From NCBI RefSeq assembly GCF_003171675.1, contig NZ_QFZQ01000008.1, forward strand, positions 1 through 64,000: a stretch of DNA of 64,000 nt, written 5' to 3'. Below the pieces are notes generated by a model. It was not told the origin of the DNA and did not search any database. It was given only the letters and a program-made list of their open reading frames with translations. Both the position numbers and the translations under genes were made by a program. Positions 16,587 through 62,334 of this stretch are shown here, piece by piece. Source of the stretch: Reichenbachiella versicolor. GTDB taxonomy: Bacteria > Bacteroidota > Bacteroidia > Cytophagales > Cyclobacteriaceae. Position 1 is the first letter of the stretch. Each line of letters opens with the position of its first letter.

Positions 16587-18209
16587 ATGCTTGAGTCAAA
16601 CCCTACACTATCAAGAAAAGCTAAACTGGAGCAGCTTAGCAAAGAATATTTTGATCTGATCATTATCGGAGGAGGCATTACAGGTGCAGGTATTGCATTG
16701 GATGCGGTTTCAAGAGGACTAAAAGTTGCTCTTTTCGAAAAAAATGATTTTGCATCTGGTACTAGTAGTAAATCCACTAAGCTGATTCACGGCGGACTTC
16801 GTTATCTCAAGCAGTATGAATTTTCTTTGGTAAGAGAAGTAGGTAAAGAGAGGGCTACGGTTCATAAAATTGCTACTCACCTTGTTCGTCCAGAAAAGAT
16901 GCTGCTTCCACTAATTAAAGGAGGTAATTATGGAAAGATTATTACTTCTGTTGGATTAATGGTATACGACGTACTTGCAGATGTAAGCAATGAAGACCAA
17001 CGAAAGATGTTAACTGTGGATGAAACCATAGAGATCGAACCATTGCTAGATGAGGATAGACTTGAGGGGGGTGGACTTTATTCTGAATATCAAACGGATG
17101 ATTTTAGGTTAGTCATTGAGCTAATCAAAAAGGCCGAACAAATGGGTGTTGTGGTAATGAACTATGCTCCGTTTGTAAACTTTCTAGAAAAAGCGGGTTC
17201 TATTTGCGGAGTAGAGATTGAAGATCTTAATGGTAATGAGACTATTAAAGTTTATAGTGACTTTGTGATCAATTCTACTGGCCCATGGGCAGATGAAGTT
17301 CGAAGTACGCAAGAGCATATAGAAGGAAAACATTTACATCTTACGAAAGGTGTCCATATTGTAGTACCTCATCAAAAATTACCTGTAAAACAATCTGTGT
17401 ATTTTGATGTACCTGATGGACGAATGATGTTCGCTATACCTAGACATAAAGTAACTTATATAGGTACAACCGATACAGATTTCACAGGCAATCCAGATGA
17501 AGTAAGAACAACTGAGGATGATGTTTATTATATTTTGGATTCTGTCAATAACAATTTTCCTACTGCTGAATTAAAATTAGAAGATGTTCTTTCTTCTTGG
17601 GCAGGTGTTCGTCCATTGATAGAGGAAGAAGGTAAATCAGCATCTGAAATTTCTAGAAAAGATGAAATCTTTGTTTCCGATAAAGGACTTATCACTATTG
17701 CTGGAGGTAAGTTGACAGGTTATCGAAAAATGGCAAAACGTGCTGTGGATCAACTAATGGATATTCGCAGTGATTCACATTCGATTACCAAAGAGATTAA
17801 AAGCAAAACAAAAAAAATAAGAATTCCTGGTAATGATTTTAAATCTTACAAGTCTGTAAAAAAGTATAAAATTAAATTATTGAAGCAGTTTTCAGATATA
17901 AATCCAGATATCATTGATTATTTAGTTGACTTATATGGGAGTCAAGCTGAGAGTATTTTGCAGGGGTCAAAACCTTCATTGATTTTATCAGAAGTGGATT
18001 TTTGTATCAGGAATGAAATGGTTTTACATTTAGTAGACTTCTATATATACAGGACAGGTAGATTATTTTTTGATGTAAAAAGTATAGAAGAAACTTTAAC
18101 CGAAGTAGCTGACTATATGGCACTAGTATTTGAATGGACAAATACTGAAAAACAGCATGAAATTTCAACTCTTGAAAAAGAGATTAGATTAGCTACTGTG
18201 TTTTCTTAA
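16587..18209 (+). CDS. glpD: Aerobic glycerol-3-phosphate dehydrogenase
   Basis: FAD-dependent oxidation of glycerol-3-phosphate to dihydroxyacetone phosphate at the membrane, passing electrons to quinone. The FAD-binding GGGITGAGIALDAVSRG motif (about 29-45), the STKLIHGGLRYLKQYEF motif (about 62-78) and the C-terminal alpha-helical domain (about 400-540) are as in GlpD. Length 540 is normal. It forms an operon with glpK and, further on, lies near a glycerophosphodiesterase gene that would supply the same substrate from phospholipid head groups. Confidence 0.96.
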   Translation: MLESNPTLSRKAKLEQLSKEYFDLIIIGGGITGAGIALDAVSRGLKVALFEKNDFASGTSSKSTKLIHGGLRYLKQYEFSLVREVGKERATVHKIATHLVRPEKMLLPLIKGGNYGKIITSVGLMVYDVLADVSNEDQRKMLTVDETIEIEPLLDEDRLEGGGLYSEYQTDDFRLVIELIKKAEQMGVVVMNYAPFVNFLEKAGSICGVEIEDLNGNETIKVYSDFVINSTGPWADEVRSTQEHIEGKHLHLTKGVHIVVPHQKLPVKQSVYFDVPDGRMMFAIPRHKVTYIGTTDTDFTGNPDEVRTTEDDVYYILDSVNNNFPTAELKLEDVLSSWAGVRPLIEEEGKSASEISRKDEIFVSDKGLITIAGGKLTGYRKMAKRAVDQLMDIRSDSHSITKEIKSKTKKIRIPGNDFKSYKSVKKYKIKLLKQFSDINPDIIDYLVDLYGSQAESILQGSKPSLILSEVDFCIRNEMVLHLVDFYIYRTGRLFFDVKSIEETLTEVADYMALVFEWTNTEKQHEISTLEKEIRLATVFS

Positions 18210-18305
18210 CAATATAATAGCATTTACTTTTTTTAGATCTTTCCTAGTGTTTTTGTGATTGTGAATACCAGCTTTAAATTTGAAGCTTGCTAACGGTATA
18301 ACATT

Positions 18306-19070
18306 ATGTCCCAAAAACTAATCTCATGGAATGTCAATGGCATTCGTGCAGCTATTAAGAAAGGTTTTCACGATTCCCTTTCTGAATTAGACCCAGATAT
18401 TATCTGCCTTCAAGAGACCAAAGCTCAAGATGATCAAGTCATCGAGGCACTAGGAGAGATTCCCTATCATGTGTATGTTAATAGTGCAATAAAAAAAGGG
18501 TACAGTGGTACTGCTATTTTGACCAAGGAAAAAGCAATCAGTGTATCTAAAGGAATAGGAATTGAAGAACATGATCAAGAAGGTAGAGTGCTTACCGTTG
18601 AATTTGAGAAGTATTATTTTGTAGGAGTATATGTCCCCAATTCTAGTCAAGGCTTAAAGAGACTTCCCTATAGAGAGACTTGGGACGTAGCATTTAAAAA
18701 CTACCTTAAGAACTTGGAAGAAAAGAAGCCTGTTATAGTATGTGGTGATTTTAATGTTGCTCATCAGGAAATAGATATAGCTAGGCCTAAGTCCAACTAT
18801 AACAAGACTGCTGGATATACTCAAAAAGAGATTGATGGAATGACTAATTTCTTGGAAGCGGGATTTATAGACACTTTTAGAAAGTTGTACCCGGAAGAAG
18901 TGGCGTATAGTTGGTGGAGTTATCGAGCAGGTGCTCGTGAAAAAAACATAGGTTGGAGACTTGACTATTTTTTAGTTTCTGAAGTATTCATGGATCAAGT
19001 CCAAGATTCTACCATACTTCCAGACTATATGGAGTCTGATCATTGTCCTATTTGCTTACAAATTAGCTAA
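18306..19070 (+). CDS. xth: Exodeoxyribonuclease III family
   Basis: A DNA-repair nuclease of the ExoIII/AP-endonuclease family (EEP fold), cutting at abasic sites and removing 3' blocks. The 254-residue product shows SWNVNGIRAA (7-16), LQETKAQD (37-44), the GVYVPNS strand, the CGDFNVAH motif (about 139-146), WWSYRAGAREKNIGWRLDYFLVS (about 201-223) and the final SDHCPI motif with the catalytic histidine. It is followed after one base by the glycerophosphodiesterase gene, so the two are cotranscribed. Confidence 0.95.
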   Translation: MSQKLISWNVNGIRAAIKKGFHDSLSELDPDIICLQETKAQDDQVIEALGEIPYHVYVNSAIKKGYSGTAILTKEKAISVSKGIGIEEHDQEGRVLTVEFEKYYFVGVYVPNSSQGLKRLPYRETWDVAFKNYLKNLEEKKPVIVCGDFNVAHQEIDIARPKSNYNKTAGYTQKEIDGMTNFLEAGFIDTFRKLYPEEVAYSWWSYRAGAREKNIGWRLDYFLVSEVFMDQVQDSTILPDYMESDHCPICLQIS

Positions 19071-19071
19071 G

Positions 19072-19980
19072 ATGAAATTATTACGCACTTATATATTTCT
19101 CGCATTAGTACTACTGACCATTCAATGTTGTAATACAAAAAGTAAGGAAGTGATAAATAATATAGATATACAAGGTCACCGTGGAGCAAGAGGGTTGATG
19201 CCTGAAAATACCATTCCAGCTTTTGTTAAAGCTCTAGAGCTTGGAGTCACCACTTTGGAGTTGGATCTCGCGGTAACTAAAGATAGTCAGTTGGTAGTTT
19301 CTCATGAACCATATATGGGATATAAAATATCAACAGATAGCCTTGGAAATGAGATTACCGAAGAAGATGAACTAGAACATAATATCTATCAAATGACTTA
19401 TGATCAAGTTCAGAAATATGATGTTGGTTTGAAGTTTCATTCATCATTTCCTGATCAGGAAAAAATGAAGGTAAACAAGCCTCTATTATTAGACTTGGTA
19501 CGTACTGTGAATGAATATTCGGCAAAGAACGGAATTGAAAATATTCGATATAACATTGAAATAAAGAGCAAGTCAAGTGGTGATGATTTATATCACCCAA
19601 CCCCAGAAGTGTTTAGCAAATTAGTCTATGATTTCATAGAAGAACATATGGATAAAAAGCTTCTGAATATACAATCGTTTGATTTTCGAGTTCTTAAATA
19701 TTTTCGTGAAAATTATCCTGAGATTGAGCTTGCAGTACTAATAGACAATAATGTTTCAATAGATCAAAATATTGATAGCTTAGGATTCATTCCAGAGATT
19801 TATAGTTGCTATTACAAATTATTAGATGGTGATAAAGTAAAATACCTTCAGATGAAAGGATTGAAGGTAATACCTTGGACTGTTAATAATCAGGAGGACA
19901 TCGAAGAAGTTTTACAGTGGGGAGTTGACGGTATTATTTCTGATTACCCCAATAGAGTAATTGACTTCATTTCAAATTAA
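19072..19980 (+). CDS. Glycerophosphodiester phosphodiesterase lipoprotein
   Basis: Hydrolyses glycerophosphodiesters to glycerol-3-phosphate and an alcohol. The 302-residue product begins with a lipoprotein signal peptide whose lipid-acceptor Cys is about residue 19 or 20, so it acts in the envelope. Catalytic features of the GDPD family are present: HRGARGLMPENT (about 37-48), LELDLAVTKDSQLVVSHE with the metal-binding acidic residues and histidine (about 63-80), and IEIKS (about 163-167). Its product feeds GlpD, encoded just upstream, which explains its place here. Confidence 0.93.
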   Translation: MKLLRTYIFLALVLLTIQCCNTKSKEVINNIDIQGHRGARGLMPENTIPAFVKALELGVTTLELDLAVTKDSQLVVSHEPYMGYKISTDSLGNEITEEDELEHNIYQMTYDQVQKYDVGLKFHSSFPDQEKMKVNKPLLLDLVRTVNEYSAKNGIENIRYNIEIKSKSSGDDLYHPTPEVFSKLVYDFIEEHMDKKLLNIQSFDFRVLKYFRENYPEIELAVLIDNNVSIDQNIDSLGFIPEIYSCYYKLLDGDKVKYLQMKGLKVIPWTVNNQEDIEEVLQWGVDGIISDYPNRVIDFISN

Positions 19981-20021: not shown

Positions 20022-20972
20022 ATGAGTATACCGAGTCTCAGCGACATTAAAAGAGCACATACCCGAATTTATCCATATGTAGTAAATACACCTGTGATTA
20101 CTTCACGCACGATAAATGAGCTTGTGGATGGGGAAGTCTTCTTCAAGTGTGAAAATTTGCAGAAGGTGGGAGCTGTAGAAATGAGAGGTGTTGCTAATTA
20201 TGTGTTTTCCACTCGTTCAGACTTGCGAAAAAATGGTTTTGCTACGCATTCTTCTGGTAATCATGCGCAAGCTGTGGCAAAGGCAGCTGCTCTGGCTGGC
20301 GTCAAGGCGTATATTGTGATGCCTCAAGATGCCCCTCCTGTGAAAATTGCTGCAGTAAGAGGCTATGGTGCAGAGCTAACACTCTGTGAACCAAATGAGG
20401 CAGCAAGGAAAGAAGCATGTGATAAAATCGTGAAGGAGACAGGTGCTATTCAGATTCATGGATATGATGATCCTATAATTATTGCTGGAAATGCTACAGC
20501 GGGTAAAGAGTTGATCGAAGAAGAACCAGATTTAGATTTCGTGCTCTGTCCAGTAGGTGGAGGTGGTATGGCAGCAGGGACTACTTTGATTACACATTAT
20601 GTAAGTCCATCAACTAAAGTCATTTTAGCAGAACCAGAAAATGTAAATGATGCTTACTTGTCTTTTCAATCTGGAGAAAGGCAAACATTGCCTGTTGACC
20701 ATAAACCAACTGTCGCTGACGGTTTGCAAATTTCAATAGGTGAACTGAATTTTGAAATAATCAAAAAATACGCCGATTCCATCGAGACTGTATCTGAAGA
20801 GGAAATTATTTCAGCTATGAGATTTGTATGGGAGCGGATGAAAATGGTGATAGAGCCATCAGCCGCAGTACCAGTAGCATTGTTGTTGAAAAACAAAGAG
20901 CAATTTACAGGTAAGAAAACAGGAGTAATTCTAGTAGGTGGTAATGTTCAAGTGGACAACCTTCCATTCTAA
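20022..20972 (+). CDS. Fold-type II PLP-enzyme homologue lacking the catalytic lysine
   Basis: Clearly related to serine racemase/threonine dehydratase: SSGNHAQA (77-84), the glycine-rich phosphate loop GGGGMAAG (179-186), VADGLQ (231-236), EPSAAVP (278-284), and the metal-site residues Glu204 and Asp210. However, the position of the PLP-binding lysine (usual context G-[SA]-F-K-x-R-G) reads GAVEMRG, with Glu53 in place of Lys. The residue that normally hydrogen-bonds the pyridine nitrogen (SGGN) reads VGGN, with Val306. It is therefore unlikely to be a normal dehydratase. I chose ATG at 20022 (316 residues), because an upstream TTG at 19983 adds a non-family tail. It follows the glycerophosphodiesterase gene by 41 bases and is probably cotranscribed. 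Confidence 0.88.
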   Translation: MSIPSLSDIKRAHTRIYPYVVNTPVITSRTINELVDGEVFFKCENLQKVGAVEMRGVANYVFSTRSDLRKNGFATHSSGNHAQAVAKAAALAGVKAYIVMPQDAPPVKIAAVRGYGAELTLCEPNEAARKEACDKIVKETGAIQIHGYDDPIIIAGNATAGKELIEEEPDLDFVLCPVGGGGMAAGTTLITHYVSPSTKVILAEPENVNDAYLSFQSGERQTLPVDHKPTVADGLQISIGELNFEIIKKYADSIETVSEEEIISAMRFVWERMKMVIEPSAAVPVALLLKNKEQFTGKKTGVILVGGNVQVDNLPF

Positions 20973-20974
20973 TC

Positions 20975-21736
20975 TCACCCGTATATCTCATTGAGAACAC
21001 CTGCAAGACGAACGCCTGCTCTTAGTAAGCGTTCGTTTAATGTGGAAATATTGTCATAGATGTACCGGTAGGATAATTTTTTGTTTTCAGGGATGTTGTA
21101 CACTTGTGATCTCAGATCTTTTCCTTCTAGTGCCCATTTTAAAACATCTTCGGATTGCCATTTTTGGATTTGCTCCTTGGTAGGGTGATTGATCCATTCA
21201 CTGTATTCAGTATACGATAGTTTTTGGTGATCTATCATATCAGTATCCCAAACTCTGTGCAAATTAGTTTCTTTCCACATGAACTCGACCTCAACTGTGT
21301 TACCACCTTTGTCTTGACCATTTCCTACATGTAGAGGCTGGTGAATATCTGCAATCAGATGAACTAGATATTTAAGGTTTTCTAATTCACTTTCATATGT
21401 AAATTCTTTCGATTTGAGTTCAGAAGTGATTCGGATAATTTGTTGGATAACATCACTTTTTTCTGGAATACCAGCTTCTTCATATGACTGTTCATCTGGA
21501 ATAGTACAATAGTGCCAAGGCGCCATATAGTTCATATTTGGATCGGATCGAACAAAGTCCATGTAATTGCCTATAAGTCCGAGCGGCTCATTATGAAGTA
21601 CTTTTTTTATGTTCTTTTTGGCCTTAGGAGTAAGGTGCTCAAAAGCAATCTGTCCAACAACTCTATGACCAGTTTGCCCCCACCCAAAAGCTGTAGTAGA
21701 TAACAGAAGAAGAATTAGTGTTTGGAAAGGCTTCAT
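20975..21736 (-). CDS. S1/P1-type zinc nuclease
   Basis: A secreted single-strand nuclease/3'-nucleotidase of the S1/P1 family. The signal peptide ends at about residue 18 so that the mature protein starts with Trp (WGQTGHRVVGQIAFEHL); the N-terminal Trp is itself a zinc ligand in this family. The other ligand motifs are visible: HYC near 76, HLIADIHQPLHVGNGQDKGGN (about 129-149) and LHRVWDTDMI (about 158-167). At 253 residues it is of normal size. It converges with the PLP-fold gene with only 2 bases between stops. Confidence 0.92.
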   Translation of the reverse strand: MKPFQTLILLLLSTTAFGWGQTGHRVVGQIAFEHLTPKAKKNIKKVLHNEPLGLIGNYMDFVRSDPNMNYMAPWHYCTIPDEQSYEEAGIPEKSDVIQQIIRITSELKSKEFTYESELENLKYLVHLIADIHQPLHVGNGQDKGGNTVEVEFMWKETNLHRVWDTDMIDHQKLSYTEYSEWINHPTKEQIQKWQSEDVLKWALEGKDLRSQVYNIPENKKLSYRYIYDNISTLNERLLRAGVRLAGVLNEIYG

Positions 21737-27002: not shown

Positions 27003-28556
27003 ATGTTCATCACAATTCAAAAACTTAAGAAATACTCAGCTTATGCTATGTGCAGTTTAGCTTTATTAACTGCTTGTAGTCCTAAAAAAGCTGAAGTCGC
27101 TTTGGACGAAGAGACTAAACCTGTCTACGAACCAAACTGGGAATCTATAAAAGCTAACTACAAAGACCCTGAATGGTTCAATAAACAGAAATTTGGGATA
27201 TTTATTCATTGGGGAGCGTATACTGTACCCGCTTTTGGGTCAGAATGGTATCCAAGATTAATGTATATGGATACGGCTACCTTTACTGCTCAGCTTGATC
27301 ACCAACAGGATGGCCCTCATAAAGTTCATAGTCACCACAAAGAGAACTGGGGAGACCCAAAAGAGTTTGGATACAAGGATTTTATACCAATGTTCAAAGC
27401 TGAAAAGTGGGATCCTGAAGCTTGGATAGACCTTTTCCAAAAAGCTGGAGCTAAATACGTTATTCCTGTAGCAGACCACCATGATGGTTTTGCGATGTAT
27501 AAGTCGAATACGACAAGATGGAACTCATTTGATATGGGTCCCAAACGTGACGTCCTTGGAGAACTGTTTAAAGCTGGACGTGAGAAAGGTATGATCATGG
27601 GTACGTCATCACACTTTGCCTTCAACTGGTCATTTTATAATAAAAAGGATCACTTCGATACCGTTGATCCAGAATATGCAGATTTGTACAGTTCCAAAGG
27701 AAAGGATCTTTTGGAGCCAGTTTCTCAGAAATTTTTGGACAGATGGTGGGAAAGAACGATTGACGTTATTGACAACTATCAGCCAGATATTTTTTGGTTA
27801 GATTTTTACGTAGATATTCCTGATTTCGAGTCGGTAAGACCAAGATTGGCTGCTTACTATTACAATAAAGGAATTGAATGGAACAAAGAAGTTGTACTAC
27901 AGGACAAGAACTTTAGCCATGAAGCTTTTCCAGAGGGAACAGTAATCTATGATCTTGAAAGAGGGAAATTACCTGGTATTCGTAAGCTTCCTTGGCAAAC
28001 AGATACTTCTATTGGTAAGAATTCTTGGAGTTACGTAACTAATTGGAAGTCTAAAACAGCAAACTCTCTTATCGATGACTTAATAGATATCGTGAGTAAA
28101 AATGGCAACCTTCTTCTAAATGTAGGTCCAAAAGCTGATGGTACTATTCCTGAGGATCAAGAGGAGATTTTATTACAAATCGGATCATGGTTGGATACGA
28201 ACGGTGAAGCTATCTATGATACGAAGTATTGGAATATTTTTGGTGAAGGGCCTACTGAAGTGAAGAAAGGTCACCACTCTGAAGGTGGTAATAAAGGTAT
28301 GACTGCAGAAGATATAAGATTCACTACCAAAGAAAACACACTTTACGCTATAGCTATGGATTGGCCAGAAAATAGCAAAATGGTTATTAAGTCATTGGCT
28401 AAGGGATCAGAATACGAACTTAAGGAAATCAAAGACATAAAACTATTAGGTAGTGATGCTAAACTGAGCTGGGAAATAACAGAAGCCGGTCTTGAAATTC
28501 AATTACCAGCAGAGAAAATTGGAGACTTTGCTCACTCAGTAGCTATCTCCATGTAA
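27003..28556 (+). CDS. Alpha-L-fucosidase, GH29, lipoprotein
   Basis: Removes terminal alpha-L-fucose from glycans such as fucoidan or host-type oligosaccharides. The 517-residue product has a lipoprotein signal peptide with Cys25 (LLTAC), so it is envelope-anchored. GH29 marks are FGIFIHWGAYTVPAFGSEWY (about 64-83), YVIPVADHHDGFAMY (about 152-166), and the nucleophile in PDIFWLDFYVD (Asp267). NGNLLLNVGPKADGTIP (about 365-381) is another GH29 block. A C-terminal beta-sandwich (about 440-517) completes the fold. It is monocistronic with a strong terminator; no SusC/SusD pair is nearby. Confidence 0.95.
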   Translation: MFITIQKLKKYSAYAMCSLALLTACSPKKAEVALDEETKPVYEPNWESIKANYKDPEWFNKQKFGIFIHWGAYTVPAFGSEWYPRLMYMDTATFTAQLDHQQDGPHKVHSHHKENWGDPKEFGYKDFIPMFKAEKWDPEAWIDLFQKAGAKYVIPVADHHDGFAMYKSNTTRWNSFDMGPKRDVLGELFKAGREKGMIMGTSSHFAFNWSFYNKKDHFDTVDPEYADLYSSKGKDLLEPVSQKFLDRWWERTIDVIDNYQPDIFWLDFYVDIPDFESVRPRLAAYYYNKGIEWNKEVVLQDKNFSHEAFPEGTVIYDLERGKLPGIRKLPWQTDTSIGKNSWSYVTNWKSKTANSLIDDLIDIVSKNGNLLLNVGPKADGTIPEDQEEILLQIGSWLDTNGEAIYDTKYWNIFGEGPTEVKKGHHSEGGNKGMTAEDIRFTTKENTLYAIAMDWPENSKMVIKSLAKGSEYELKEIKDIKLLGSDAKLSWEITEAGLEIQLPAEKIGDFAHSVAISM

Positions 28557-41331: not shown

Positions 41332-41519
41332 ATTAAATGCCTAAAGACAATAAATTGCATATTTTTGAATTGTATTATATACAGGTGATAAAATAGTTAA
41401 TACTAAGACAAGCGAGTAGCGCTTTTGACATTGATCAGAATCCGCGTAGTGTTTATGTGTCGTTTGTTTTATTAAAATTTGTATTTATTTTAGGAGTTCG
41501 AATAAAATTTGAATTTGTT

Positions 41520-42734
41520 ATGAAAAAATTTATTCCTTTCTTGAAGGCTTCACTTTATGCCTTCGGAGCGGGTGTTGTTCTTACGTCATGCCTAGGAGGT
41601 GGGACAGGACATCCAAATAGCTCAAACCCAGGGGAGGCAAGTACCTTAACTGGAATGGCTTACAATGAAGAAGAAAACTTTCAAGTAAACGATTTTAGTG
41701 GGCAGCCAGATGGCCCTAACTTGAGGTTCATCGAAGGAGGTAGAACTATTCTAGGTTCTTTCGAGGAAGATATAATGAATAGCAACGATAACATTGAAAG
41801 AACTGTAACAGTTGCTTCTTTCTATATGGATGAAACTGAAGTAGCTAATATTCACTGGTTGGAATATCTCCACTATGTGAAGCTAGATTCTTCAGATGAA
41901 TTTTATCAGTCTGCATTACCAGATACTACTGTTTGGTCAAAAGATCTTGCTTATAATGACCCTTACGTCGATCATTATTTAAGATATCCAGGTTTTAGAT
42001 ACTTTCCAGTAGTTGGTGTTAATTGGTTACAAGCACAAGATTTCTGTAGATGGAGATCAGATGTTGTAAATGATAGGTTGTATAAAGAATCTGATTTTTA
42101 CCAAGAAGCTGGTGCAGAAGGATTAGATGGTGATAAACCGCAATTAGAGTCTGGCGTTGTTCTTCCTGACTATAGACTTCCTTCTGAGGCTGAGTGGGAA
42201 TATGCCGCACAAGCACTAATTGGTACTCAATGGTTGGATGAAAATCAAACGCATAGAAGACTATATCCTTGGGATGGTCATGCTTTGAGAAATCCATATG
42301 GTAAAAAGTTAGGGACTTTCCTTGCTAACTTCAAAAGAGGTAGAGGGGATTACGCAGGTATTGCTGGTAAGCTTAATGATGGAGCTATGATTACTACCTA
42401 CATTTATGAATATCCTCCAAACGACTTCGGTCTTTATAACATGGCAGGAAATGTAAATGAGTGGGTTCAAGATGTATATAGACCGCTTTCATTCCAAGAT
42501 ATGGACGATATGAACCCAGTAAGAAGAGATGGATTCCTAGATGAAGAAGACGGTTATGACGCACAAAACTTCAACTCGTTGATTTCTGATAGAGTACGAG
42601 TAATCAAAGGAGGTTCTTGGGCTGATGTAGCTTATTGGATGTCTCCTGGAACAAGAAGGTTTCTAGAAGAAGATTCTTCTACTTCTACAGTAGGATTTAG
42701 ATGTGCCATGATTAGAGCTGGTACTAACTACTAA
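41520..42734 (+). CDS. GldJ/GldK-like lipoprotein (formylglycine-generating-enzyme fold)
   Basis: A 404-residue lipoprotein with a signal peptide ending VVLTSC (Cys at about 24) and an SUMF1/FGE-like fold. Conserved parts are LRFIEGGRTILGSFEED, SFYMDETEVANIHWLEYL, FPVVGVNWLQAQDFCRWRSD, YRLPSEAEWEYAAQ, YNMAGNVNEWVQDVYRP and RVIKGGSWADVAYWMSPGTRRF..GFRCA. Gliding lipoproteins GldJ and GldK of the type IX secretion/gliding machinery share this fold, and the YNDPYVDHYLRYPGFRYFPVVGVNWLQA stretch fits GldJ best, though this protein is shorter than the GldJ I remember. Start chosen at ATG 41520, because the frame to 41457 would bury the signal peptide. Monocistronic. Confidence 0.8.
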   Translation: MKKFIPFLKASLYAFGAGVVLTSCLGGGTGHPNSSNPGEASTLTGMAYNEEENFQVNDFSGQPDGPNLRFIEGGRTILGSFEEDIMNSNDNIERTVTVASFYMDETEVANIHWLEYLHYVKLDSSDEFYQSALPDTTVWSKDLAYNDPYVDHYLRYPGFRYFPVVGVNWLQAQDFCRWRSDVVNDRLYKESDFYQEAGAEGLDGDKPQLESGVVLPDYRLPSEAEWEYAAQALIGTQWLDENQTHRRLYPWDGHALRNPYGKKLGTFLANFKRGRGDYAGIAGKLNDGAMITTYIYEYPPNDFGLYNMAGNVNEWVQDVYRPLSFQDMDDMNPVRRDGFLDEEDGYDAQNFNSLISDRVRVIKGGSWADVAYWMSPGTRRFLEEDSSTSTVGFRCAMIRAGTNY

Positions 42735-50144: not shown

Positions 50145-51833
50145 TTAATTATTTGATAAAGCCTTAGCCTTTTTTTTCTTCATTGCTTTTCTCCTAGCTA
50201 GTTCCTTTAGTTCTGTTTTGTTAGCTGGGGATAATGGACCATGTTGTTCCTCGTCAAATTTGTCAAACTGAGGAAGTATATTCAGTAGTTTTTCCTTTTC
50301 CTGTTTTAGATCTGAGGAAGCCATATTCCAGTCAGTAATTTGAGGAAAGCTGATTAAATCCTTAGGGTTTTCTCTGACATCATACCATTTGTCACGACCA
50401 TCTTTGAGTAAGATATCATTGCGGATGATTTGCATTGATCCTTTATAACCATAAATCCACTCTCGGTGTGTGGGTTTATTTGTAGTCAAGAATGGAATTA
50501 AGCTCACACCATTCATTTCATAGTCGGCAGGTATATCAACACCCGCCAATTCAGCTACAGTAGGCAATACATCGGCTATATTCACCAAGACATCTTGAAA
50601 CCCCTTCTTAGTCATACCCAATCCTGGTGCATAAACCATAAATGGCACATGTACACCTTTCTGAATATCAGGACTATTTTTGCCATACTTTCCCGTTCCA
50701 TTGTCGGCACAGAAGATTATTATAGTATTGTCCATTATTCCTAGATCATCAAGCTTATTGAGATATTGCCACATTTGATAATCTAGGTAATTGATGTGAG
50801 TATGAATACCTGGTTCTGTTATCGTACCATGAGTATCATAATTTCCATTATCACCAGTGATTTTTGGTTGTGTTCGTACATATTCTTTACCAGTCCATTT
50901 AATTTTGGGAGTTCCAGGCCATTTGCTAGTCTCCTTTGGATTGACAAAATTCATCGCATCATGTCCAAGATGAGTTGTATGGTATACAAAGAAGGGCATC
51001 TTATCATTAGTCTTTCTTTCCATAAAGTCTAGAATAAAATCTAACTCTACATCTGGACCATAGGTATGAGTACCATATGCTTCTTTACTCTCAGGAGTAT
51101 TTGGCCACCATTCGTACTTTTTTCCTTTTGAGCTTGGGTGGTTCATCAGCATTACATGAGGTTTCCAATACCAACTATTTTGAGCATAAGTGTCCATTTC
51201 TTCACCAGTATCCATATTGAGTATTCTCTTATGACCATTTTCCTTTACAATTTCCACTCTAAAGTCTGTAAATGAGTTTGGCTCTAGTCGTGTTTGTTTT
51301 AATGGCCCTGGTGTAAATACTCCTTCGTCAAATCCAAATTTTGATAAGTCAGCTCCTCTCATTTGTGTTTTGCCTGCCCATATGGTTGCGTATCCGCCCT
51401 CTTTCGCAATGGCTCCGATGGTTTTGGGAGAGCTTTCGTAAAATGGATAGGCAACTGCCTTTCCTTTTTCATTGGTGTATTGACCAATAGATTTATTTTC
51501 CCACCATTTATGAAGATGTGCATACCTACCTGTCATCATCATTGCTCTACTCGGAGAGCAAACGACTGATGCCCAAGCTGTCTTAACATAGCAACCTTCT
51601 TTAGCTATTTTGTCCAAAACGGGAGTTTTAGCTCTGTATTTTACATCTGACGTATTCTTAGCTTCTGGAGAACTCCATGTGTCCGATCCATATATTGGAA
51701 ATTCTCTTGCGCTGATGTCATCGGCAAATACAACGATGATATTAGGTTTTGATTTCTTTGTAGTTTTGGCGAAAGTGTTGGACACTACAGTTATTATACC
51801 CACTACGCTCATCAAAATAGTTCTTACCTTCAT
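50145..51833 (-). CDS. Secreted sulfatase (S1 family, Cys type)
   Basis: Removes sulfate esters from sulfated glycans or related substrates. The 562-residue product has a Sec signal peptide (about 1-22) and the metal-binding N-terminal segment NIIVVFADDISAREF (31-45). The formylglycine motif is CSPSR at 92-96 in SVVCSPSRAMMMTGR, so Cys92 is matured to formylglycine by an anaerobic or FGE-type enzyme encoded elsewhere. VYHTTHLGHD, and IIFCADNGTGKYGK (about 366-379), are the other metal-site blocks. A lysine-rich C-terminus (KKKKAKA) follows. A marine-polysaccharide role is inferred, together with the fucosidase elsewhere in the window. Confidence 0.93.
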   Translation of the reverse strand: MKVRTILMSVVGIITVVSNTFAKTTKKSKPNIIVVFADDISAREFPIYGSDTWSSPEAKNTSDVKYRAKTPVLDKIAKEGCYVKTAWASVVCSPSRAMMMTGRYAHLHKWWENKSIGQYTNEKGKAVAYPFYESSPKTIGAIAKEGGYATIWAGKTQMRGADLSKFGFDEGVFTPGPLKQTRLEPNSFTDFRVEIVKENGHKRILNMDTGEEMDTYAQNSWYWKPHVMLMNHPSSKGKKYEWWPNTPESKEAYGTHTYGPDVELDFILDFMERKTNDKMPFFVYHTTHLGHDAMNFVNPKETSKWPGTPKIKWTGKEYVRTQPKITGDNGNYDTHGTITEPGIHTHINYLDYQMWQYLNKLDDLGIMDNTIIIFCADNGTGKYGKNSPDIQKGVHVPFMVYAPGLGMTKKGFQDVLVNIADVLPTVAELAGVDIPADYEMNGVSLIPFLTTNKPTHREWIYGYKGSMQIIRNDILLKDGRDKWYDVRENPKDLISFPQITDWNMASSDLKQEKEKLLNILPQFDKFDEEQHGPLSPANKTELKELARRKAMKKKKAKALSNN

Positions 51834-60781: not shown

Positions 60782-60818
60782 TGATAACCCTTTCAGATTT
60801 GGAAGGGTTATTTTTTTT
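60782..60818. terminator. Terminator of asnS, overlapping the end of the GH3-family gene
   Basis: ATAACCCTT and AAGGGTTAT pair around a 10-base loop and a run of eight T follows on the plus strand. The stop codon of the minus-strand GH3 gene (60808-60810) lies inside the right arm. Confidence 0.9.
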
Positions 60819-62334
60819 CAAGCATCTCTAATATATCCTCGATATACTCTCGATTATTGGCCAGCCTAGGAACCTTGTTTTGCCCTCCTAGTTTGCCTCT
60901 TCGTTTCATCCAAGCGTAGAATGTTCCTATCTCAACTGGGTGGACTATTGGAAGCTTTAAGGCCATATCTTTATGCCGCTTCGCATCATAATCTGAGTTT
61001 ACTTCTCGTATCTTTTCGTCTAATTTTCTAACGAACCTTTCTAAGCTGTCAGGTTTCGACTTAAACTCAATAATCCATTCATGACCACCACCTTCTCTCT
61101 TATCCGAAAAATATAACGGAGCTGCTGTGAAATTGTCGATAGTTGCTCCCGTGGCCTCACAAGCAGCACTAACTCCTTGTTCCGCGTTTTCAACAACTAG
61201 CTCTTCCCCAAAGGCATTGATAAAATGCTTGGTACGACCGGCAATTTTAAATCTGTAAGGATCAAGATTGGTAAACTTGATGGTGTCGCCAATATTGTAT
61301 CGCCACAATCCAGCATTTGTCGTAATGATCATTGCATAGATTTTTCCTAGTTCTACTTCTTCAAGCTGGATAGTTTTTGGGTGTTCGTCTTGGATATTTT
61401 CGTATGGAATGAATTCATAGTAAACGCCATAATCCAACATCAGTAGAAACTCGTCGCTATCTATTTGATCTTGAATACCGAAAAAACCTTCGGAGGCGTT
61501 ATAGATTTCCATATAACGCATGCTGTCTTTCGGAATCAGCTCTTTGAAGAGGTTTCTATACGGGGTAAAAGATACAGCACCATGAAAGAAAACCTCAAGA
61601 TTGGGCCAGACTTCAGTAATGTTGTCAGTGCCCATTATTTCATTGATACGTTGGATAAGAAGGATAGTCCAAGTAGGTACCCCAGAGATATTGGTGACAT
61701 CAACATCTTTGGTTTCCATAGCCATACGCTCGATTTTTTCTTCCCACTTGTCCATAAGCGCCACTTCCAGAGAAGGGGTTCTTACATACTGCGCCCAAAG
61801 TGGTAAGTTTTGCATGATGACTGCTGATACATCTCCGTAATGTGTTTCTTGCTTTGGATCTAACTCATTGACTTGATGACTACCTCCTATGGCAAGACCT
61901 TTACCGCTGAACATCTGCGAGTCTGGATAGTTGTTTACATAAAGCGATATTAAATCTTTTCCACCCTTGTAGTGACAGTCTTCCAGAGCCTCCTTCGATA
62001 CAGGAATGAACTTGCTTTTGGCATTAGTGGTTCCGGATGATTTTGCGAACCATTTAATGTCTTTAGGCCAAAGCACTTTTTTCTCACCTTTTAGACGGCG
62101 TTCTATGTAAGGATATAATTGCTCATATGTGTGAACCGGTACATCCTGTGCAAACTGATCAGGGTTCTCAATATTTCTGAAATCATACTGCTTGCCGAAG
62201 TCAGTTTTCTTCGCAGTATCGAGTAGGTAATGAAAGGTGTCTCGCTGCACGTCATGTGGGTATTTCATAAAAAGCTCGATATCATGTATCCGCTTCTTCA
62301 TGACAAATGTCAAGATGGAATTCAATAAGGGCAT
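60808..62334 (-). CDS. GH3-family acyl-adenylase-like protein
   Basis: A 508-residue protein of the GH3 auxin-responsive-promoter family, which in plants conjugates acyl acids to amino acids. The ATP-binding segment FAKSSGTTNAKSKFIPVS (about 101-118), the YNASEGFFGIQ block (about 289-299) and LWRYNIGDTIKFTNL (about 346-360) are the family motifs. Bacteroidota carry one or more copies of unknown substrate. It lies 4 bases downstream of lptB and is likely cotranscribed with it. Confidence 0.88.
   Translation of the reverse strand: MPLLNSILTFVMKKRIHDIELFMKYPHDVQRDTFHYLLDTAKKTDFGKQYDFRNIENPDQFAQDVPVHTYEQLYPYIERRLKGEKKVLWPKDIKWFAKSSGTTNAKSKFIPVSKEALEDCHYKGGKDLISLYVNNYPDSQMFSGKGLAIGGSHQVNELDPKQETHYGDVSAVIMQNLPLWAQYVRTPSLEVALMDKWEEKIERMAMETKDVDVTNISGVPTWTILLIQRINEIMGTDNITEVWPNLEVFFHGAVSFTPYRNLFKELIPKDSMRYMEIYNASEGFFGIQDQIDSDEFLLMLDYGVYYEFIPYENIQDEHPKTIQLEEVELGKIYAMIITTNAGLWRYNIGDTIKFTNLDPYRFKIAGRTKHFINAFGEELVVENAEQGVSAACEATGATIDNFTAAPLYFSDKREGGGHEWIIEFKSKPDSLERFVRKLDEKIREVNSDYDAKRHKDMALKLPIVHPVEIGTFYAWMKRRGKLGGQNKVPRLANNREYIEDILEMLEKK

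Follow-up and report, generated by a model that had tools for sequence, protein, structure and literature searches.

The 64,000-nucleotide stretch of Reichenbachiella versicolor DNA analysed here (below called the window) carries a gene for a serine racemase-like protein, here named P0001, in which the active-site lysine and further residues of the PLP pocket are replaced. Judged from these replacements, PLP catalysis has very likely been lost. On balance, and by a modest measure, we hold it probable that P0001 is a lineage-specific pseudoenzyme of fold type II, i.e. a protein whose reaction became dispensable, which lost PLP catalysis while its fold stayed under constraint and which was kept for a role independent of PLP. 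It has the hallmarks of a pseudoenzyme: it is homologous to an enzyme, an essential catalytic residue is gone and the frame is open.

Family and fold of P0001

The frame translates into an intact protein of 316 amino acids and is interrupted by neither a stop codon nor a frameshift.

20022..20972, + strand: P0001, PALP-family protein (fold type II) of the serine racemase / hydroxyaspartate-dehydratase type, without the PLP lysine (translation, Pfam, model and fold search)

P0001 belongs to the PALP or fold-type-II family by descent and by fold. The Pfam profile PF00291 (PALP) matched with an E-value of 5.6e-72 and a score of 243 bits (cut-off 35), and the Pfam scan detected no domain besides PALP. 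The top NCBIfam matches were the beta-hydroxyaspartate dehydratase BhcB (NF045641, 381 bits) and threo-3-hydroxyaspartate ammonia-lyase (NF005454, 327.2 bits), but P0001 stayed below the equivalog cut-offs of both (550 and 452 bits, respectively) and lacks the lysine. The closest PDB sequences were the serine racemases of Dictyostelium, human and S. pombe.

The AlphaFold2 model had a mean pLDDT of 94.8. In the best 21 fold matches listed, serine racemases, threonine deaminases and an aspartate racemase aligned with it along the whole chain (Z 44.0-47.6, rmsd 1.4-2.1, 303-314 residues); the top match reached a Z of 47.6, and an rmsd of 1.4 over 311 residues was also among the matches listed. 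For human serine racemase (3l6b) the values were Z 46.0 and rmsd 1.9 over 313 residues. P0001 shares with the serine racemases of Dictyostelium (6lut), S. pombe (1v71) and human the full-length fold (Z 45.4-47.0, 40-46% identity) as well as the tetraglycine loop, the serine loop and the metal ligands. Unlike these enzymes, it has no equivalents of Lys56, Phe55, Ser313 and Pro153.

Residues of the PLP site

For comparison 210 other loci were read, which came from separate homologue searches (29 + 80 + 21 + 80, the 21 from the search of family genomes) and, with three identical sequences removed, gave 207 distinct proteins. This count excludes three paralogues from the own genome as well as seven loci that duplicate, at greater length, loci of the congeners. 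The 207 are close homologues, mostly orthologues by best match, with 46-68% identity to P0001; as a sample they cover part of the 224 family genomes with a match. The following positions of the site are altered in P0001:

20175..20180, + strand: Val-Glu (codons 52-53) replacing (Phe/Tyr)-Lys, the ring-stacking residue and the Schiff-base lysine (F/Y52 and K53 in 207/207)
20190..20192, + strand: Val57 replacing Ala/Gly, located in the helix that follows the lysine (A in 184 and G in 23 of 207; helix 53-63 in the model)
20460..20462, + strand: Gly147 replacing Pro in the substrate loop (P153 of human serine racemase; P in 207/207)
20934..20945, + strand: VGGN (codons 305-308) with Val305 replacing Ser/Thr/Cys, the pyridine-nitrogen ligand (S313 of human serine racemase; S in 139, T in 65 and C in 3 of 207)

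According to the review PMC6424897, K56 is the active-site lysine of human serine racemase, F55 the edge-to-face partner of the ring and S313 the donor to the ring nitrogen, and the loop 152-155 is decisive for aspartate- versus serine-racemase function. The equivalents K56, F55, P153 and S313 of residues 53, 52, 147 and 305 were counted along the sequence alignment of P0001 with the PDB entries.

A preliminary description of this DNA had claimed that Glu53 replaces the catalytic lysine. This was confirmed, since all 207 other proteins carry Lys at this position, and Glu53 lies opposite K56 in an alignment that is free of gaps from residue 5 to residue 53. The pi-stacking aromatic residue before the lysine (Phe in 198 and Tyr in 9 homologues) is missing as well. 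The same description had placed a valine in the SGGN motif at residue 306. The valine is present and no ligand of the ring nitrogen is left, but the residue is 305, and the letter that it replaced was probably Thr rather than Ser because all seven congeners have Thr here. Likewise, both of the PLP anchors described as lost are indeed gone; the losses, however, amount to four pocket residues, as Val52 and Gly147 have to be included.

Three lysines of P0001 (130, 228 and 249) are missing from all seven congeners. None of them aligned with the Schiff-base position, so that the alternative alignment which the preliminary description had allowed for was not found.

Other parts of the site are intact, as had been described:

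20250..20264, + strand: serine loop SSGNH, codons 77-81 (S77, S78 and N80 in 207/207; H81 in 169, F in 38)
20556..20567, + strand: phosphate (tetraglycine) loop GGGG, codons 179-182 (homologue alignment)
20631..20651, + strand: metal site with Glu204 and Asp210, codons 204-210 (E204 and D210 in 207/207)

Thus S77, S78 and N80, the glycines G179-G182 and the pair E204/D210, which we take to be the metal-binding residues, are all present. S78 corresponds to the re-face serine of human serine racemase (Ser84), and R129 is also retained. Among the 207 other homologues the sole departure at a class-conserved pocket column was found in a Planctomyces MAG (locus L106, 2904-3845), where the tetraglycine loop begins with Ser instead of Gly.

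The altered pocket was seen in one genome only. Orthologues with the same Glu and Val, for which a search had been proposed, did not occur among the 207 homologues. The presence of Lys and Ser in every orthologue had been named as a finding that would speak against the earlier interpretation, and in essence this was the pattern observed, with Lys throughout and Ser, Thr or Cys at the second position. This limits the phenomenon to a single lineage but leaves P0001 without its lysine all the same.

Gene order, orthology and copy number

The gene is flanked by a conserved upstream block (16587..19980, + strand) and by a downstream gene on the opposite strand:

16587-18209, + strand: FAD-dependent oxidoreductase of the glycerol-3-phosphate oxidase/dehydrogenase type (Pfam; upstream, kept in 7/7 congeners)
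18306-19070, + strand: exonuclease III type protein (Pfam; upstream, kept in 7/7 congeners)
19072-19980, + strand: GDPD phosphodiesterase (Pfam; upstream, kept in 7/7 congeners)
20975..21736, - strand: S1/P1 nuclease (Pfam; downstream, kept in 7/7 congeners)

The order of these five genes, including that for P0001, was the same in all seven congeners, each of which carries the orthologue with its lysine. The tree of the P0001 gene and that of the concatenated neighbours agreed in placing the window protein beside the congeners G002, G004 and G006. The tree of gdpd alone differed and placed it beside G001, with a support of 0.418. Because gene order and place in the tree match, the P0001 gene is a vertical orthologue and not a paralogue.

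A check for a second canonical copy, also proposed earlier, found none in the own genome, where the relatives share only 22-32% identity with P0001. The candidate L002, a threonine-dehydratase-type protein of 423 amino acids with the lysine, was rejected at 32% identity, and two other relatives at just 22 and 26%. No copy of P0001 was found in one scan of viral contigs.

With a threshold of E 1e-85 or better the gene was present in 224 of 245 family genomes, the own genus included, and 21 of the 245 had no match. Four of the latter (G017, G036, G078 and G103) are assemblies that are 99% complete, so that an outright loss of the gene is possible in some members of the family.

Further genes of the window were assigned by Pfam. 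An alpha-L-fucosidase (27003-28556), a protein with a sulfatase-modifying-factor domain (41457-42734) and a sulfatase (50145-51833) may serve the degradation of sulfated fucose polysaccharides. At 60808-62334 on the - strand lies a gene for a GH3-family protein, in which each of the three GH3 domains was recognised.

Other amino-acid lyases of the genome

L-serine dehydratase (SDH_alpha, PF03313) and histidine/aromatic ammonia-lyase (PF00221) were found in 7/7 congeners and are absent from the own genome (G000). The D-serine-dehydratase-type domain (D-ser_dehydrat, PF14031) is present in 6/7 congeners and absent from the own genome and one congener. These absences come from five families tested and are not corrected for how often genes are absent from this genome in general. 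A loss specific to serine was rejected, since HutH, which had been chosen as an outside control, is itself absent. Amino-acid breakdown has not been lost wholesale, since the genome retains glycine decarboxylase and an enzyme of the threonine-aldolase type.

Judged by these gene contents, the species appears to have dispensed with several amino-acid deaminations. It is plausible that these losses are the reason why the reaction of P0001 became dispensable, a causal link that we infer. A wider loss of amino-acid deamination in this genome is possible.

Evolutionary rate and constraint

Among themselves, the congeners' orthologues of P0001 share 75-96% identity, whereas the window protein shares 65-68% with them. 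For the four neighbouring genes the corresponding ranges were 55-94% among the congeners and 56-74% for the window. On a fixed tree, the ratio of the window branch to the rest of the tree was 0.70 for the P0001 gene against 0.25 for the four neighbours together, an acceleration of 2.77-fold (95% interval 1.83-3.95; 60 bootstraps each). Within the branch the acceleration may be older than the loss of the lysine.

The ratio of synonymous to non-synonymous change, which the preliminary description had proposed to determine, gave an answer in part. A codon model rejected omega = 1 over the whole window branch (p = 3e-5), while the rise of the branch omega (0.084 versus 0.033) was not significant (p = 0.12) and dS was saturated. 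Of the neighbouring genes, GDPD pointed the same way (p = 0.058) and the nuclease the opposite way (p = 0.02), the branch of the latter being at the bound. The dN/dS ratios of P0001 and its neighbours therefore carry little weight, and with dS saturated we place more trust in the amino-acid rate.

P0001 retains 48 of 51 strictly conserved columns; the three changes are K53E, P147G and L183M, the last of them conservative. When 100 class-conserved columns were considered, P0001 departed at five (52, 53, 57, 147 and 305), four of which fall within 15 pocket columns (hypergeometric P 0.0016, for a pocket list drawn up with the departures already seen). The other 207 sequences showed 89 departures from such columns, 1 of them in the pocket; as these sequences are related, the Fisher value of this comparison is no true probability. 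We presumed S83, N86, H87 and R135 and the exact metal ligands to be members of the pocket list. Its members K56, F55, S313, S84, the tetraglycine loop and the loop 152-155 were taken from PMC6424897. Since the departures concentrate in the pocket, constraint on the sequence appears to have been relaxed at the PLP site and maintained over most of the rest.

These figures bear on the possibility that the gene was recently released from selection and is heading for loss, its reaction having become useless and Lys53 and the pocket having drifted while the frame stayed intact through the short time elapsed. We consider this somewhat unlikely, and a serious competitor because three other lyase families are already missing from the genome. 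The accelerated branch would fit it too, as would the 21 family genomes without a match, some of them nearly complete, which point to tolerated loss elsewhere. The number of neutral replacements matters here. The rate comparison gave a rough estimate of 50-60 replacements in excess on the P0001 branch. Were these neutral, a frame free of stop codons would be expected with a probability of 0.06-0.03, and 3 or fewer hits in the 51 conserved columns with one of 0.02-0.005, which speaks against decay in a gene that has neither stop nor frameshift and keeps 48 of these columns. With 20-30 neutral replacements, however, the two values would be 0.34-0.20 and 0.60-0.25, and decay is not rejected. The clustering of the departures in the pocket, instead of a spread over the protein, argues against it.

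Nature of the change

As we would reconstruct it, the ancestor was a single-copy gene whose product was a PLP-dependent enzyme like serine racemase or threo-3-hydroxyaspartate dehydratase. The PLP site would then have been dismantled in place by the changes of Lys to Glu, of the stacking Phe/Tyr to Val, of the ring-nitrogen Thr/Ser to Val and of the substrate-loop Pro to Gly. As the residues strongly suggest, no internal aldimine could form at position 53 and the deaminase or racemase reaction would be lost. This loss of the pocket goes together with the absence of other amino-acid lyases, which was found by search and whose causal connection is presumed. The fold, the serine loop, the phosphate loop and the metal site appear still constrained, and for this reason P0001 is probably still produced and has a PLP-independent role, for example in binding a ligand with a carboxylate or phosphate group.

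For a pseudoenzyme speak the 207 homologues that without exception keep Lys53, F/Y52, P147 and S/T/C305, the vertical descent with no other copy, the accelerated branch with omega = 1 rejected, the concentration of departures in the pocket, the confident fold and the missing lyase families. Against it stand the restriction of the change to one genome, with none of the 207 homologues sharing it, the branch omega that is not significantly raised with dS saturated, an acceleration that may predate the lysine loss, the decay left unrejected by 20-30 neutral replacements and the glycine decarboxylase and threonine-aldolase-type enzyme still encoded in the genome.

A more far-reaching proposal is a conversion in place, without duplication, to a PLP-free ligand-binding protein. 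Its pocket would have been rebuilt around Glu53, Val52, Gly147 and Val305, and its subsites for carboxylate, phosphate and metal would now serve to bind an amino acid or a phosphorylated metabolite directly. This we regard as rather doubtful.

The non-PLP interpretation of the preliminary description, which had suggested a deliberate role, for instance as an amino-acid sensor, agrees with our data as far as the loss of PLP catalysis is concerned. The data do not show that the role is deliberate: none of the 207 homologues shares the change, PALP is the only domain that Pfam detects and the neighbours are those of the ordinary enzyme. In a sensor, which we count within the pseudoenzyme reading, Glu53 would bind the alpha-amine and the serine loop the carboxylate, and closure of the small domain would signal to a partner. 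The retained serine loop and R129 are compatible with this, nothing else pointing to a sensor in particular, and the title of PDB entry 3l6r claims an inhibitor-induced conformational change for mammalian serine racemase. Yet the change is conserved across no species, Pfam shows PALP alone and the neighbours are those found around the ordinary enzyme in the congeners. We regard a sensor as decidedly unlikely.

Still less probable is an active enzyme of altered chemistry, in which Glu53 would act as acid/base and no covalent bond would anchor the pyridoxamine phosphate or external aldimine. The phosphate loop, serine loop, metal ligands and R129 are kept, and lysine-less precedents exist in another fold type, namely the ColD-type dehydratases with His. 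The loss of both the stacking aromatic residue and the ring-nitrogen ligand, however, argues against the holding of any pyridine ring. A sequencing or assembly artefact, suggested by the single genome, is barely credible, as had been argued before from the loss of both PLP anchors in a protein that keeps its phosphate and substrate parts: four pocket codons are altered in an otherwise intact frame, Val52 (GTA from Phe/Tyr), Gly147 (from Pro) and Val305 (from Thr) each require at least 2 base changes by the genetic code, and the genome of 22 contigs has a completeness of 100 and a conserved gene order.

Comparison with known pseudoenzymes and implications

Most described pseudoenzymes originate from spare copies. 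The tryptophan synthase beta family is likewise of fold type II. Within it, according to PMC12727527, the TSB-like protein of core eudicots is a pseudoenzyme of tryptophan synthase beta with two key residues changed and its allosteric role kept. As a PLP-family protein turned non-catalytic it is the closest precedent that we found. TSB-like differs in being a paralogue beside a live TSB, widespread in plants, with TSA as partner and with other residues changed, whereas P0001 is the sole orthologue in one genome. A literature search returned no paper joining 'pseudoenzyme' with 'serine racemase', and a second one on PLP proteins without the catalytic lysine returned, judged by titles, none on such a protein except TSB-like; neither is proof of absence in print.

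Annotation by homology would label P0001 a dehydratase or racemase, which should be taken as a warning. As the sole copy of a widespread gene that has lost the anchor of its cofactor and kept its fold, P0001 represents a clean natural experiment on what becomes of this scaffold without PLP.
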